Origin: Vulcanimicrobiota bacterium | GTDB lineage: Bacteria; Vulcanimicrobiota; Vulcanimicrobiia; Vulcanimicrobiales; Vulcanimicrobiaceae | Length of the DNA: 64,000 nucleotides | Direction: 5' to 3' | NCBI GenBank assembly: GCA_027307235.1 | Contig: DAHUXH010000012.1 | Coordinates: forward strand, 1-64,000 | Shown here: positions 372 through 5,414 of the stretch, in pieces | How positions within the stretch are numbered: position 1 is the first letter of the stretch | How the letters are laid out: each line of letters opens with the position of its first letter | Position numbers and translations under genes: made by a program | Notes under the pieces: model-generated | The model's database searches: none | What the model was told of the DNA's origin: nothing | Seen by the model: only the letters and a program-made list of their open reading frames with translations

Positions 372-1997
372 CTAGTGGTGCAGCGCGAGTTGTGTGACGC
401 GGAAGACGACAAGGCCGACGGCGACGATCAAGTATGCGCGCAGCACGATCAGCCAGAACCGGTTGAGCGGTGTCAATCGCGCCTTCGGCAGCGACGACAG
501 CGGCGGCATCTGCCATTCATGCTGTTTGGTTCGATCGACCGACGGGGCGTCTGCGTCGTCGGAGCGCATGAGCGACATCCAAACGCCGACGGCGACGGTC
601 AGGATCGTGCCGATCCCAAGAATCCAAAGAATCTGCGTTGTTCCAAGCGATGGGAACACGGTCGCGGCGGTGAGGATGATCGACAGCATGACCAGCGCCG
701 CGATGACCACGCCGGTGAACACGTTGGTTCGCTGCGAGTTCGCCCACGGACCGAGAACGGGCTTGTCGTTGGAGAGTAACAGCAGGAAGACGGTCGCACT
801 CGGCAGCAGCACGCCGGCCAGCACCTGCACCGCGTTCGTGAGCAGTCCGAGCGGACTTCCGGGCACCAAGACGATGGCGGCAGCGATGCCGATCAACCCC
901 ATGTAGACGAGATAAAATGCGGGCGCGTCGGTCACTTTGCGGTGCAGCGAATGACCGACCGACAGCATGTCGCCGACCGCGTAGGCTGTCGAAAGCGATA
1001 CCGCCGCCGCACCGATGATCGCCGCGTCCAAGAGCGCAAGCGCGAACAGGTTTCCCGGGAGGGCGCCTGCATATTTTGCAATCCCCGCCGCCACGGCTCC
1101 CGCGTCTTGGAAGTTACCGAACTCTTGGTGGCCGGCAAATGTCGCGGCCGTGAACGACATCATGGCAACAGCGCCGAAGATCACGAACAGGATGCCCAAA
1201 ACCAAGTCCCACCGCTCGTAGTTGAGCCAGCGCGTCGTGATCCGCTTGTCGATGACGTAGCTTTGCTGAAAGAATAGCTGCCACGGTGCGACCGTCGTGC
1301 CGACGATACCGATGATCAGCAGCATCACGACGCCGACGTCGGCACCTTTCGGCAGGCCGGGAACAAAGAAATCGTGCAGCGATTGCCCGATCGGCGCGTG
1401 AACCATCATGAGAACCGGCAACAGCAAGAGGCTTCCGAAGCACAAGACCATCGCGAAGCGCTCAAAACGGCGGAAGCTCCCGGTCGCGGCGCCAAGCATC
1501 ACCAGGAGCGCGGCGACGACGACCCCCGCGATCTTCGGCAAGCCGAAATAGTTCAGCGCAAGGCTGATGCCGATGAACTCGGTGACGATCGTCAGCGCGT
1601 TGAGGATGAGCAGGTCGATGACGCTGAACGCTCCCCAGAATTTTCCGAAGCGTTCGAGGATAAGACGCGCATGTCCGACGCCGGTGACGGCGCCCAGACG
1701 CAAGACCATCTCCTGGTTCACGTACAGCACCGGAACCAGCAACAGCAACGTCCAGAGCAGCGCCGTTCCATAGTTCTGCGCTGCCTGCGTGTAGGTCGAA
1801 AAGGCGCCGGCATCGTTGTCGCCGACCATTACGATCAAGCCGGGCCCGACGATGGCGAGAAACGCGACGAGCTTGGCCCATAGGCCTTTGCGCGACGCCG
1901 TGTCTTCCTTGCGGATGGTTCCGAACGCACCCTTGATGTCACCGACGTGAAGCGGGTCGAGGTGCGCACTCGCTACCTGGCGTTCAAGGGTCGTCAT
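372..1997 (-). CDS. NRAMP/SLC11-related divalent metal transporter, probably Mg2+
   Basis: A 541-residue polytopic membrane protein of the NRAMP fold with about 11-12 hydrophobic segments. The ion-site motifs are altered: in TM1 the canonical DPGN is replaced by DNDAG (residues 60-64), and in TM6 the canonical MPH is replaced by APW (residues 237-239, GTTVAPWQLFF). Loss of the TM6 methionine, which helps select soft metals such as Mn2+ and Fe2+, is expected in the NRAMP-related magnesium transporters. The Mg2+-sensing M-box upstream independently points to Mg2+. An ATG 90 nt inside the longest frame was chosen because AAGGGG sits about 10 nt upstream and the preceding small ORF ends 13 nt before it. 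Confidence 0.88.
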   Translation of the reverse strand: MTTLERQVASAHLDPLHVGDIKGAFGTIRKEDTASRKGLWAKLVAFLAIVGPGLIVMVGDNDAGAFSTYTQAAQNYGTALLWTLLLLVPVLYVNQEMVLRLGAVTGVGHARLILERFGKFWGAFSVIDLLILNALTIVTEFIGISLALNYFGLPKIAGVVVAALLVMLGAATGSFRRFERFAMVLCFGSLLLLPVLMMVHAPIGQSLHDFFVPGLPKGADVGVVMLLIIGIVGTTVAPWQLFFQQSYVIDKRITTRWLNYERWDLVLGILFVIFGAVAMMSFTAATFAGHQEFGNFQDAGAVAAGIAKYAGALPGNLFALALLDAAIIGAAAVSLSTAYAVGDMLSVGHSLHRKVTDAPAFYLVYMGLIGIAAAIVLVPGSPLGLLTNAVQVLAGVLLPSATVFLLLLSNDKPVLGPWANSQRTNVFTGVVIAALVMLSIILTAATVFPSLGTTQILWILGIGTILTVAVGVWMSLMRSDDADAPSVDRTKQHEWQMPPLSSLPKARLTPLNRFWLIVLRAYLIVAVGLVVFRVTQLALHH

Positions 1998-2010
1998 TCC
2001 ATCGATCCCC

Positions 2011-2166
2011 TTACTTGGTTCCCAAGTAGCCGGCGTAGGACAGCCACGGCGAGTACACGCGGCACGAATCACTGAATTGGCCCGCACGCAGCGAGTCGTC
2101 GTGCGCGTTCGGTGTACGGCTGAAGAATGAGCGCGCGACGGCGCGCAGCAATGCCAAGATGGTCAT
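2011..2166 (-). CDS. Small ORF between M-box and NRAMP-like gene
   Basis: A 51-residue frame starting MTILALLRAVARSFF and ending SYAGYLGTK. It has an AGGA ribosome site about 10 nt before the ATG and its TAA lies 13 nt before the transporter start, a spacing that suggests translational coupling. The N-terminus is amphipathic or hydrophobic and basic; the C-terminal half is rich in Ser and Tyr. I do not recognise the family. It could be a small accessory membrane peptide of the transporter or a leader peptide whose translation affects downstream expression. Confidence 0.5.
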   Translation of the reverse strand: MTILALLRAVARSFFSRTPNAHDDSLRAGQFSDSCRVYSPWLSYAGYLGTK

Positions 2167-2189
2167 GGCACGGTTCCTTTCATAGTCTC

Positions 2190-2276
2190 CTAGGGTGCTG
2201 CGCCGAACGAATGGCACAGCGAAAATCGGCTCAATGCGAGCCTGCGACTGCTACTGCTACTACTGCCACCGTCCAC
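2190..2276 (-). CDS. Possible 28-residue leader peptide
   Basis: A GTG-initiated 28-codon frame (VDGGSSSSSSRRLALS...) follows a near-perfect GGAGGTGA ribosome site by 9 nt, downstream of the M-box terminator hairpin and upstream of the 51-residue ORF. It contains six consecutive Ser codons (AGT/AGC). The strong ribosome site is the main support; without homologues this could be chance. Confidence 0.25.
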   Translation of the reverse strand: MDGGSSSSSSRRLALSRFSLCHSFGAAP

Positions 2277-2324
2277 GGCGTGAACTCACCTCCTCTCGCG
2301 TGCCGCGAACCCAATCGCGCGCAC

Positions 2325-2362
2325 AAACAAAAAACTGCCGCTTGCATCCTCGCAGGCGACAG
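2325..2362 (-). terminator. Intrinsic terminator of the M-box expression platform
   Basis: On the minus strand an 11-bp stem (CTGTCGCCTGC with GCAAGCGGCAG, one mismatch and one G-T pair) is followed at once by TTTTTTGTTTG. It lies between the Mg2+ aptamer and the first downstream ORF, as expected for a riboswitch that stops transcription when Mg2+ is plentiful. Confidence 0.85.
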
Positions 2363-2407
2363 TCGAGAAACGTGACACCGGGCAGACCCGGCCGCACCTC
2401 CCTCAAT

Positions 2408-2560
2408 GTCGAGTTTTAGCACCGCACGCTATAAAGGTCCCGTGGGCCTTAGCCGCGTTAGATTCCGCCTTGATTCGGCGGGATCTGGTCAACCCGTTGG
2501 AGTCTCTCGACCTTTCCGGGCAGCGGCGTGTCATCGTGCGGACGCCTCACCTAACGAGGA
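2408..2560 (-). promoter_or_regulatory. M-box (ykoK-type) Mg2+ riboswitch aptamer
   Basis: Read on the minus strand, the leader holds the conserved M-box blocks in order: GTTAGGTGAGGC (2544-2555), GCTGCCCGGAAA (2513-2524), a GTCGAGAGACTCCAACGGGT block (about 2487-2508), a CCGCC/GGCGG hairpin (about 2462-2483), GGCTAAGGCCCACGGG (2438-2453) and GTGCTAAAACTC (about 2412-2423). These match the Bacillus ykoK leader closely by eye. It controls the NRAMP-related transporter and probably the exported protein behind it. Exact ends are approximate. Confidence 0.92.
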
Positions 2561-2582
2561 ATCCGTAACCATCATATCCCCT

Positions 2583-2603
2583 CGTGTCAACCTACTTGAC
2601 ACG
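2583..2603. promoter_or_regulatory. Inverted repeat containing two divergent TTGACA boxes
   Basis: CGTGTCAA, 5 nt, TTGACACG: a perfect 8-bp inverted repeat. Each arm contains a consensus -35 hexamer TTGACA pointing outward, one toward the thioesterase operon and one toward the M-box transcript. On the minus side a 17-nt spacing leads to a weak TACGGA -10 box and a start at about 2555, just at the riboswitch 5' end. Confidence 0.6.
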
Positions 2604-2696: not shown

Positions 2697-3209
2697 ATGC
2701 TGTCTGAGATTCGAGTCGTCGAAGCCGAGCGCGAGCCTTCGAGCGAATGCTTGATACGCTTTCGCGATTGCGATCCGTACGGGCATCTGCACAACACGCG
2801 CTACGCCGACTATCTGCTGGATGCGCGAGAAGAGCATCTGCGCGAGCATTACGGGATCGACTTCGCGGAGTACGCCCGCGTGAACGGTCTCGGTTGGGTG
2901 ATCACCTCGACCAAGATCAATTTCTTCGCGCCCGCTCGCGCTTCCGAACCGGTGCGTATCCTGACGCGCCTGGTTGATTTCAACGAGAACTACATTCACG
3001 TCGAAGCGCGCATGTACGGGTGCCGCAAAGGCGACCTGAAGGTGCTCTCCTGGAATTCGTGCTGCTGCGTCGACGTTCGCACCGGCGGGCGCCGCGATCA
3101 CCTGCCGGAATTCATGCAGTTGTGCGAAGCGATCGTCCACCCGACGCCGCTGCCGCTGACCTTCGAAGCGCGTCTCGCGACGGTTCCGCGCAACCTTACG
3201 ACGCCTTGA
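2697..3209 (+). CDS. Hotdog-fold acyl-CoA thioesterase (4HBT type)
   Basis: A 170-residue single hotdog domain. The N-terminal FRDCDPYGHLHNTRYADYLLDAREEHL matches the 4-hydroxybenzoyl-CoA thioesterase type: Asp in the D-x-x-G-H-x-x-N motif is the usual catalytic residue. Substrate unknown. The frame is open farther upstream, but that stretch covers the promoter and riboswitch, so the ATG after GCGAGGTGCCCC was taken. Its stop overlaps the probable TTG start of the efflux pump, so the two are likely coupled. Acyl-thioester hydrolysis next to an efflux pump suggests a role in fatty-acid or membrane stress, which is inference. Confidence 0.85.
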   Translation: MLSEIRVVEAEREPSSECLIRFRDCDPYGHLHNTRYADYLLDAREEHLREHYGIDFAEYARVNGLGWVITSTKINFFAPARASEPVRILTRLVDFNENYIHVEARMYGCRKGDLKVLSWNSCCCVDVRTGGRRDHLPEFMQLCEAIVHPTPLPLTFEARLATVPRNLTTP

Positions 3210-4732
3210 CTGCCATTCTCGACCTCGTCGAGTACGGCCCACGCCGTTCGGCAGTCGTCGGCGCCGCCATGCTCGCCGCTCTGCTCCAGCTTGCAGACGC
3301 GACCATCGTCAACGTCGCCCTTCCCACCATCAACGGCGAACTGGGTGCTTCGATCGACGAAGGCACGTGGATCATCACGGCCTACCTCATTGCCAACGTC
3401 ATCGTCATTCCGCTCTCGCCGTGGCTGCAAGCGATGCTCGGACGCACTCGCCTCTTTGCGATCGCCGTCGGCGGCTTCACCGTTCTCTCGCTTGCGTGTG
3501 GTTTTGCGCATGACGTGCAAACCGAGATCGTGTTGCGCTTCGCGCAAGGCGCATTCGGCGGCGGCATCATGGTTCCGGCGCAGCAGATCATTCGCGACAC
3601 CTTCCCACCGCGCCAACTTGGCACGAGTCAATCGCTCTTCGCGCTCGCCGTCATTATGGGCCCCACGATCGGTCCGACGCTCGGCGGATTCTTGACCGAC
3701 GCGCTATCGTGGCGCTGGGTCTTCTTCATCAACGTGATTCCCGGTGTCATCGCCGTGCTGCTTGCGCTCTTCTTCATACGCGAACCCAAGGGCGCTCCGC
3801 GCCGCGCATTCGACACGCTCGGCATCGTCTTGCTCGCGATTGGCCTGGGCGCGTTGCAGTGGATATTGGGCGAAGGCGAACGCCGGAACTGGTTCGACGA
3901 TCAAACGGTCGTCATGATTTCCATTCTGAGCGCGGTGGCGCTCGCCGCGTTCGTCGCGTGGGAGCTGTTCGGCGCCGAGCACCCCGCCGTTGCGCTGCGG
4001 GTCTTGCGCAATCGCGCCGTCTGGGCGATCGCGCTTGCCAACTTCGGTCTCGGCGCTATCGTTTTCGGTACGATCTTGCTGTTTCCGCAATACTGGCAAG
4101 GTGTGCTCGGCATGACCACGACGCTCTCCGGGCTGCTCTTGATGACGCGCGCCGGCGCCATGCTCGTGCTCTATCCGGTGACGAACTGGGTGTCGTCGCA
4201 TGCCAGACTCGACCTTCGTATCGTCGCCGCCGTCGGCATCGCGTGTCTCGCCGTCGCGAGTTGGGCACAAGCGGCGATCTTCACGACGCACACGGAGTTC
4301 GGCACATTCCTGCCGACGCTGATCTGGGGCGGCATCGGCTCTGCCTTCATCTTCGTGCCGCTCAACGTGCTGCTCTTTCGACTGACGCCGCCCGCCGACA
4401 CCGTGCCGGCGCTGGCGCTCGCACGTCTCTCGCAACAACTTGGCGGATCGCTGGGCGCCGCGTTGACGGCGACGTTCTTCGATCGTTTCATCGCGCAGCA
4501 CCGTTCAGATCTGGCGAGCACGGTGCAGGCGTCGAACCCGGCCATTCACGCGTTCGTCGAACAGCACACCGCGGGTGCGGTGTCGATGCTCACCGCGCTC
4601 ATCGGCAACGAAGCGACGAATCTCGCCGCCGCCGACGTCGTGCGCTGGTCGGCGATCGTCGCCGCCGCGCTCGCGCTGTTGCCGCTGCTGATCGGGCGCG
4701 GGGTGCGCTCGGCATTGAGGAGTGATCGATAG
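3206..4732 (+). CDS. DHA2-family (EmrB/QacA) MFS efflux pump
   Basis: About 508 residues with 14 predicted membrane segments. The first helix contains DATIVNVALPTI, the diagnostic DHA2 motif; GRTRLF follows the second helix and PTIGPTLGGFL is the antiporter motif C of helix 5. The family exports drugs or amphiphiles using the proton gradient in the inner membrane. No good ATG is found before the first helix. TTG at 3206 overlaps the thioesterase TGA (TTGA), giving an N-terminus of normal length; an ATG at 3270 would start just at helix 1. It is followed by an overlapping TetR regulator, its likely repressor. Confidence 0.88.
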   Translation: MTAILDLVEYGPRRSAVVGAAMLAALLQLADATIVNVALPTINGELGASIDEGTWIITAYLIANVIVIPLSPWLQAMLGRTRLFAIAVGGFTVLSLACGFAHDVQTEIVLRFAQGAFGGGIMVPAQQIIRDTFPPRQLGTSQSLFALAVIMGPTIGPTLGGFLTDALSWRWVFFINVIPGVIAVLLALFFIREPKGAPRRAFDTLGIVLLAIGLGALQWILGEGERRNWFDDQTVVMISILSAVALAAFVAWELFGAEHPAVALRVLRNRAVWAIALANFGLGAIVFGTILLFPQYWQGVLGMTTTLSGLLLMTRAGAMLVLYPVTNWVSSHARLDLRIVAAVGIACLAVASWAQAAIFTTHTEFGTFLPTLIWGGIGSAFIFVPLNVLLFRLTPPADTVPALALARLSQQLGGSLGAALTATFFDRFIAQHRSDLASTVQASNPAIHAFVEQHTAGAVSMLTALIGNEATNLAAADVVRWSAIVAAALALLPLLIGRGVRSALRSDR

Positions 4733-4733
4733 G

Positions 4734-5414
4734 ATGCTCGAAGCGAACCACGTGGCGCAGAACGTGCCGATCCAAAAACTTGACGGTCGTCGCGCGCGCG
4801 GCGACCGGTCACGGCTCGCCGTGCTCGACCGTGCTCTCGGCATCGCCTCCGTGGAGGGTCTCGAGGGGCTCACGCTCGGAAGGCTCGCTGCGGAAGCGGG
4901 CATCAGCAAAGGGAACTTGACGGTGCTCTTCGGCGACAAGGAGGCACTGCAACTTGCAACGATCGACGCTTCCATCGCACGCATGGTTTCAATCGTCGTC
5001 GAGCCGGCGCTGCGCAAGACATCGCCCTTCGCGCGCGTCCAGGCATTGTGCGACGGCTGGTTCAAGCGCATCGCAGGCGGTGATTTTCCGGGCGGGTGTT
5101 TCATGTACGCGACCGCGCACGAGTATCGGGCGCGATCCGGCGCGCTGCACGACCGGGCGGTTCACAATCTTCTTCTCTGGCGCAAGACGCTCGGCAAGCA
5201 GTTGCGTGAAGCTCAAGCGGCCGGAGAACTTCGTCCCGACATCGACGTCGTCGACGCCGTCATCACGCTCGTGGCCTATCAGAACACGGCGCACCTCGCA
5301 CAGACGACCGGAGACACGGCGATGTTCGAGCACGCCTGGCGGCTCTCACGCCGTTTTCTCGACTCGCTCCTCATTCACCATGCGCCAAAGCCGAAGCGAG
5401 TTCGCCAAAAGTAA
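4734..5414 (+). CDS. TetR/AcrR-family transcriptional regulator
   Basis: 226 residues. The N-terminal helix-turn-helix spans roughly residues 20-70 (LGRLAAEAGISKGNLTVLFGDKEALQLA), followed by an all-helical ligand domain with a TetR_C-like GCFMYATAHEY segment. A GTG at 4722 is possible, but the ATG at 4734 has GAGGAG at good distance. It probably represses its own operon with the thioesterase and MFS pump through the palindromes near 2583-2638. Confidence 0.87.
   Translation: MLEANHVAQNVPIQKLDGRRARGDRSRLAVLDRALGIASVEGLEGLTLGRLAAEAGISKGNLTVLFGDKEALQLATIDASIARMVSIVVEPALRKTSPFARVQALCDGWFKRIAGGDFPGGCFMYATAHEYRARSGALHDRAVHNLLLWRKTLGKQLREAQAAGELRPDIDVVDAVITLVAYQNTAHLAQTTGDTAMFEHAWRLSRRFLDSLLIHHAPKPKRVRQK

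Follow-up and report, generated by a model that had tools for sequence, protein, structure and literature searches.

An M-box riboswitch serving as an off-switch and a cis-acting leader peptide encoded behind it appear, from sequence, to place an NRMT-type import operon under two-stage Mg2+ control, a reading to which we give a probability of about 0.7. The operon lies in the window, that is, the whole stretch of 64,000 nucleotides, from a bacterium of the phylum Vulcanimicrobiota (Table 1). That an M-box controls the NRMT gene, the headline of the initial annotation, is correct but already known, because a 2014 publication described M-boxes ahead of Nramp-related genes and reported that two of the encoded proteins transport Mg2+ (Shin 2014, PMC4072509). 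The new part is the leader with two reading frames, uORF-A and uORF-B, both small, conserved and unannotated. They lie within the approximately 330 nt between the terminator and the NRMT start, in a leader of about 400 nt, a region which the initial annotation had passed over together with a possible operon gene at 333-1(-).

Table 1. Features of the transporter locus and its leader, in window coordinates
Feature	Position	Strand	Evidence
Secreted, outer-membrane-like protein, start only (contig end)	1..333	-	sequence, homologues in L289, L164
NRMT-type Nramp-fold transporter, 541 aa	372..1997	-	Pfam, structure-homologue search, tree
uORF-B, 51 aa, H-D-D-x-L-R-A-x-Q ... S-P-W motif	2011..2166	-	aligned family, dN/dS
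uORF-A, GTG start, 28 aa, MDGGSSSSSSRRLALSRFSLCHSFGAAP (MDGGSS...)	2190..2276	-	N-terminus kept in relatives and in Actinomycetes; selection on codons 2-8 only
Small hairpin GGCTC-GCATT-GAGCC inside uORF-A	2228..2242	-	hairpin scan; similar ones in relatives by eye
Strong Shine-Dalgarno AGGAGGTGA of uORF-A	2286..2294	-	sequence
Intrinsic terminator CTGTCGCCTGC-GAGGAT-GCAAGCGGCAG-TTTTTT	2329..2362	-	sequence inspection
M-box (ykoK) Mg2+ riboswitch aptamer	2395..2565	-	RF00380 match, 122 bits
TATGAT, putative -10 element	2571..2576	-	sequence
TTGACA element of leader promoter, 8 nt from TATGAT	2585..2590	-	sequence

The leader almost certainly carries an M-box switch. The search with RF00380 covered all 169 model positions at 122 bits (E 8e-27), against a gathering score of 44, and bears out the earlier recognition of the leader as a ykoK/M-box aptamer, while no further Rfam element gave a credible match in the leader at a relaxed threshold. 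The expression platform adjoins the aptamer, ahead of the NRMT gene. Its terminator, a hairpin with a T-run with which the leader had rightly been said to end, was found by inspection and was not among the hairpins listed by a generic scan. GCGAGGA of the terminator can pair with UCCUCGU in the 5' strand of the aptamer, which makes this strand a candidate antiterminator; Mg2+-dependent termination is inferred. A uniform antiterminator rule was dropped, since CGAGGA directly precedes the T-run in only 28 of the 78 M-box leaders of the phylum (CGAGGA background rate 5.5%). The genome of the window holds two M-boxes and two Nramp-fold genes, one M-box ahead of each gene, and an M-box precedes 13 of the 14 close NRMT orthologues in the class; in G092 the orthologue is the second gene of an operon.

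Several variants of the locus were observed in the phylum. At L274 (G062, reverse strand 530-680) the core of the M-box is swapped for an unrelated, repeat-like sequence with the two outer strands kept, and terminator, uORF-A, uORF-B and NRMT gene are all still present; the locus may be a natural test of a leader without aptamer, or an assembly error. At L164 (G010, around 465-780) the M-box lacks its 3' part, terminator and uORF-A are retained, and uORF-A and an outer-membrane gene share one reading frame. M-box loci of a third kind within the phylum (L123, L126, L140, L146 and similar) carry a conserved ORF (MAFQDGFISELVGRRATV...) between M-box and NRMT gene, which is probably the MgtE-N-like fragment described previously (PMC4072509); a Pfam search with its first 84 residues gave no match. 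Ahead of the M-boxes two promoter layouts occur, TTGACA-N16-18-TATNAT in 22 leaders and TTGACA-N7/8-TATNAT in 17 leaders including that of the window, the latter about one helical turn below what a sigma-70 promoter allows. The palindrome GTGTCAA-GTAGG-TTGACAC (2585-2603) overlaps both the leader promoter and a divergent promoter and is perhaps an operator; the divergent cluster (2698-5414) consists of thioesterase-, MFS- and TetR-like genes, named by eye.

The transporter, read from the ATG at 1997, has the NRAMP fold ascribed to it at the outset (Pfam Nramp, E 1e-76), and its closest solved structure is EleNRMT (7QIA, E 9e-49), with all other Nramp structures, those of MntH included, well behind (next 1e-19). 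Its metal site reads D-A-G-A in TM1 and T-T-V-A-P-W in TM6. The change in TM1 had been noticed correctly but in the wrong register, as D-A-G-A stands for D-P-G-N and the DNDAG cited for it begins two residues early; APW for MPH in TM6 agrees with the alignment, where T-T-V-A-P-W faces the canonical M-P-H. D62 and A65 align with D55 and G58 of EleNRMT, and T234, A237 and W239 with T224, A227 and W229 of 7QIA, giving alanine for the TM6 methionine, a threonine, and tryptophan for the first histidine; these EleNRMT positions separate NRMTs from Mn2+/Fe2+ carriers (PMC8806188). The TM1 asparagine is lost, with alanine 65 at the place where EleNRMT has glycine 58. In a tree of 77 proteins, in which long branches were flagged, both Nramp-fold proteins of the genome split from E. 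coli MntH, DraNramp, ScaDMT and BfraNramp (100/100). The phylogeny proposed as a check of the assignment keeps the window protein away from the canonical Mn2+ Nramps and on the NRMT side, where it forms part of a separate, widespread lineage and not of the EleNRMT clade; the protein of the second locus (G000:C10; D-V-G-G / T-I-S-P-W) is a member of the EleNRMT clade. A canonical MntH was not found in the genome, these two being the only Nramp-fold genes detected.

With a strong RF00380 match and a protein apart from the canonical Mn2+ Nramps, the earlier argument that the riboswitch supports Mg2+ specificity gains weight, and we consider it likely that the transporter imports Mg2+. The altered metal site by itself is no proof of Mg2+ transport, because the A. 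capsulatum NrmT, which has no M-box, restored uptake of Mn2+ and not of Mg2+ (PMC4072509). This result, together with Mn2+ being carried in vitro by EleNRMT as well (PMC8806188) and with the position of the window lineage apart from the EleNRMT clade, would suit a transporter with Mn2+, or several divalent ions, as its in vivo substrate, behind a riboswitch that senses the general divalent-ion pool, yet the exchange of the TM6 methionine for alanine, the TM6 threonine and tryptophan common to EleNRMT, and the M-box that accompanies nearly all orthologues in the class make this unlikely. As a separate observation, the transporters behind mycobacterial-type M-boxes at L337, L338, L340 and L344 bear the NRMT motif GDNDAGG, so that Mg2+, and not Mn2+, is their likely substrate; they probably correspond to the loci termed Mn2+-type (PMC12810186).

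uORF-A starts 9 nt downstream of AGGAGGTGA, and in M-box leaders of the phylum, as in those of Actinomycetes, there is a start codon served by a strong ribosome site 60-130 nt behind the aptamer, the peptides opening with MD[DG].., MDCSS.., MNDGHKP.. or MSPGDSP... A motif for these openings, which replaced a first version that was too narrow (13/78), occurs together with the ribosome site in 34 of the 78 M-box leaders of the own phylum and in 30 of the 38 of Actinomycetes, against one of 2385 control windows (p 9e-54 and 1e-60 respectively). The motif was derived from the same leaders that it scored, hence a motif-blind rule served as a check, in which the ORF with the strongest ribosome site is taken and an acidic residue at positions 2-4 and an AGT codon at 3-7 are scored; both features were present in 24/44 leaders of the own phylum and 10/35 of Actinomycetes, and in 0/185 controls. 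More than half of the M-box leaders of the phylum lack uORF-A, and those inspected are short, the terminator being closely followed by the transporter or another gene. The element is also found apart from M-boxes, as a copy between tandem NRMT genes without an M-box of its own (G092, L198:2979) and, in Proteobacteria, as similar ORFs 290-600 nt upstream of M-box-less genes of the same NRMT lineage (14 of about 62 by our count, versus 9 of 686 control windows, p 8e-11). The upstream ORFs of such proteobacterial genes at L041, L065, L076, L079, L080, L084, L092, L096 and L103 are of the MNDSDSCPL or MPDSDSYPL type and conserve an AGT serine codon.

Selection on the peptide is confined to codons 2-8, for which pS/pN is 0.39/0.06 in the mycobacterial group, 0.27/0.10 in Streptomyces and 0.24/0.08 in the own phylum; later codons are neutral in all three. 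Serine is encoded by AGT at 106 of 143 positions (74%) within codons 2-8, compared with 11 of 167 in the remainder of these ORFs and 7.6% in the ORFs of the window, and acidic residues make up 36% at positions 2-4 versus 8%, a difference partly inherent in the motif. As pS exceeds pN in codons 2-8 and serines are written AGT, the seven-residue N-terminus seems to be selected as a peptide with rare codons, a pattern that a leader peptide working in cis should show and a protein working in trans should not, and uORF-A is probably a leader peptide of this kind. The conservation of rare codons could instead represent an RNA motif. Pairing of the start region with the upstream leader, considered as another cause of the conservation, was rejected, with no excess over shuffles.

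Were uORF-A to encode a short functional peptide that works in trans, as has been proposed for Rv1805A, this would agree with the mycobacterial paralogue that exists outside the M-box context (PMC12810186), but the residues after position 8 are neutral in the three groups and differ through a frameshift between the near-identical G079 and G080, so that this reading appears quite improbable. It is likewise unlikely that the locus is an ordinary, published assembly of M-box, terminator and NRMT gene, all of them standard components (PMC4072509), in which uORF-A only keeps ribosomes on a long leader against Rho, with no Mg2+ sensing: strong ribosome sites would indeed protect such a leader, yet shielding needs no conserved peptide, while codons 2-8 are kept as peptide and with rare AGT codons across phyla and the rest of the frame is neutral.

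For the mycobacterial set, recognised by PE/PPE-like neighbours and the Rv1535 family NF040652, the ORFs found here fit the published uORF2/Rv1805A, with a second strong ribosome site, a conserved N-terminus and proline at position 7. uORF-A has the position, ribosome site and AGT codons of these mycobacterial ORFs, which were matched to uORF2 by its published description, and differs from them in the residues (MDDGP/MDGGSS versus MSPGDSP). The uORF2/Rv1805A peptide of the pe20 Mbox has been reported as mycobacteria-specific (PMC12810186), which the present data do not support. The same resemblance (PMC12810186), and the absence of a T-run terminator from all 38 Actinomycete leaders, would be compatible with the model put forward for the M. 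tuberculosis pe20 Mbox, in which the M-box uses an anti-ribosome-site to gate translation, here that of uORF-A as the primary regulated product. However, 61 of the 78 leaders of the phylum, that of the window among them, have a T-run behind the aptamer, so that transcription control suffices; the start region of uORF-A has no excess pairing to the upstream leader, and uORF-A occurs at sites without an M-box, which renders gating of translation rather improbable.

The two-stage control that we favour would proceed as follows. With Mg2+ plentiful, the M-box would fold, the terminator form and transcription stop; with Mg2+ scarce, the freed 5' strand of the aptamer would pair with the terminator and transcription would go on. 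Past the terminator, ribosomes are predicted to load at uORF-A, whose site is very strong and whose first approximately seven residues alone would matter. The course of this translation would set how strongly uORF-B, the transporter and, probably, the outer-membrane protein are expressed. The transporter, with its D-A-G-A / T-T-V-A-P-W site, would bring in Mg2+, and the uORF-B product, a real small protein in this scheme, may assist or regulate the transporter or the membrane. The likeliest trigger of the second stage would be Mg2+-dependent ribosome drop-off at a start with acidic residues, slow codons and proline, as in MgtL and MgtQ; by this analogy, ribosome destabilisation as the mechanism of uORF-A is conceivable, at somewhat less than even odds. 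The acidic content of uORF-A, with one or two D/E, is modest compared with strong ribosome-destabilising sequences, and the mycobacterial forms begin with MS, not MD. More tentatively still, uORF-A might be an old and widespread ribosome-based Mg2+ sensor of the NRMT lineage in several phyla, with or without an M-box, in which case such leaders would measure Mg2+ twice, by aptamer folding and by ribosome stability, and Rv1805A would be one local form.

uORF-B ends 13 nt upstream of the NRMT ATG and belongs to a family of 40-51 residues with the pattern H-[DN]-D-x-L-R-A-N-Q ... W-R-[AS]-L, of which 25 members were aligned. Its dN/dS of 0.10-0.45, without synonymous excess in other frames, indicates that it is coding, and it very probably represents a functional small protein; no family was found in Pfam and nothing above cut-off in NCBIfam. 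Among 149 genomes of the phylum, all strong matches fall within the window's own family. Of these 27 matches, 23 follow an intact M-box and precede an NRMT gene, which may be from either of the two lineages; another follows the replaced M-box of G062, and the other three stand alone. One stand-alone paralogue (MRILTQILRFFSRLGSRAPAAHNDNLRANEFDDQ...; L270:1319-1465 = G000:C9:121818-121964) lies in the genome of the window, has a TATAAT to itself and is flanked by MCP-like and GreA-like genes. In G002 the gene behind uORF-B looks like a mere remnant. The position of uORF-B and its occurrence away from the leader speak for a small protein that would act with the transporter or the membrane. A homology with the small protein that mycobacteria have at this position (LTPQERANLYVSRMP) was convincing by eye and was rejected, as a profile comparison gave no match.

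The gene at the contig end starts 38 nt behind the NRMT stop, and its product is barrel-like as judged by eye; no fitting family was found in Pfam. Homologues lie behind an M-box, uORF-A and a diverged copy of uORF-B in L289, where this copy stands between uORF-A and the outer-membrane gene, and behind the truncated M-box and uORF-A in L164. Membership of the gene in the NRMT operon is probable; that it gives Mg2+ a way through the outer membrane is guesswork.

A conserved peptide that was called mycobacteria-specific and whose role was unexplained thus becomes an element in M-box leaders of two phyla, with a similar element in a third, ahead of NRMT genes that lack an M-box, and the reading offered for it is that of a cis-acting leader peptide of which seven residues count. 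If true, ribosome-based Mg2+ sensing extends beyond enterobacteria, and a single leader unites it with an aptamer. The data also suggest that mycobacterial 'Mn2+-type' M-boxes precede transporters of the NRMT type, which are hence likely Mg2+ carriers, and uORF-B adds an undescribed small-protein family.

Among known systems, the M. tuberculosis pe20 Mbox (PMC12810186) has in common with the window the M-box, a strong ribosome site and a short ORF with a conserved N-terminus, followed by an operon, whereas the window has an intrinsic terminator, an NRMT gene instead of PE/PPE genes downstream and other N-terminal residues. MgtL of the E. coli/Salmonella mgtA leader, with an acidic-proline start and drop-off at low Mg2+ (PMC11282234), and Salmonella MgtQ, with Asp2, Glu5 and a strong ribosome site between two genes (PMC8092293), are likewise short ORFs with early acidic residues and proline ahead of a Mg2+ transporter, and MgtQ shares with uORF-A also the strong ribosome site and the place between two genes; the sequence of uORF-A is different, it is paired with an M-box and not with the mgtA riboswitch, and the likeness is one of composition and selection pattern. 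The nrmT loci of C. acetobutylicum (Ca_c0685, Ca_c3329; PMC4072509) equally have an M-box and intrinsic terminator before an Nramp-related gene, at two loci per genome, but the extra gene there is an MgtE-N fragment, while the window has uORF-A and uORF-B and a transporter that does not belong to the EleNRMT clade. EleNRMT of Eggerthella lenta (PDB 7QIA; PMC8806188) shares the TM1 aspartate, T-T-x-A-P-W in TM6 with tryptophan for the first histidine, and the TM3 glutamate; the window protein differs from it in A65 for glycine 58, the fourth residue of the TM1 site, in its greater length and in its separate clade.
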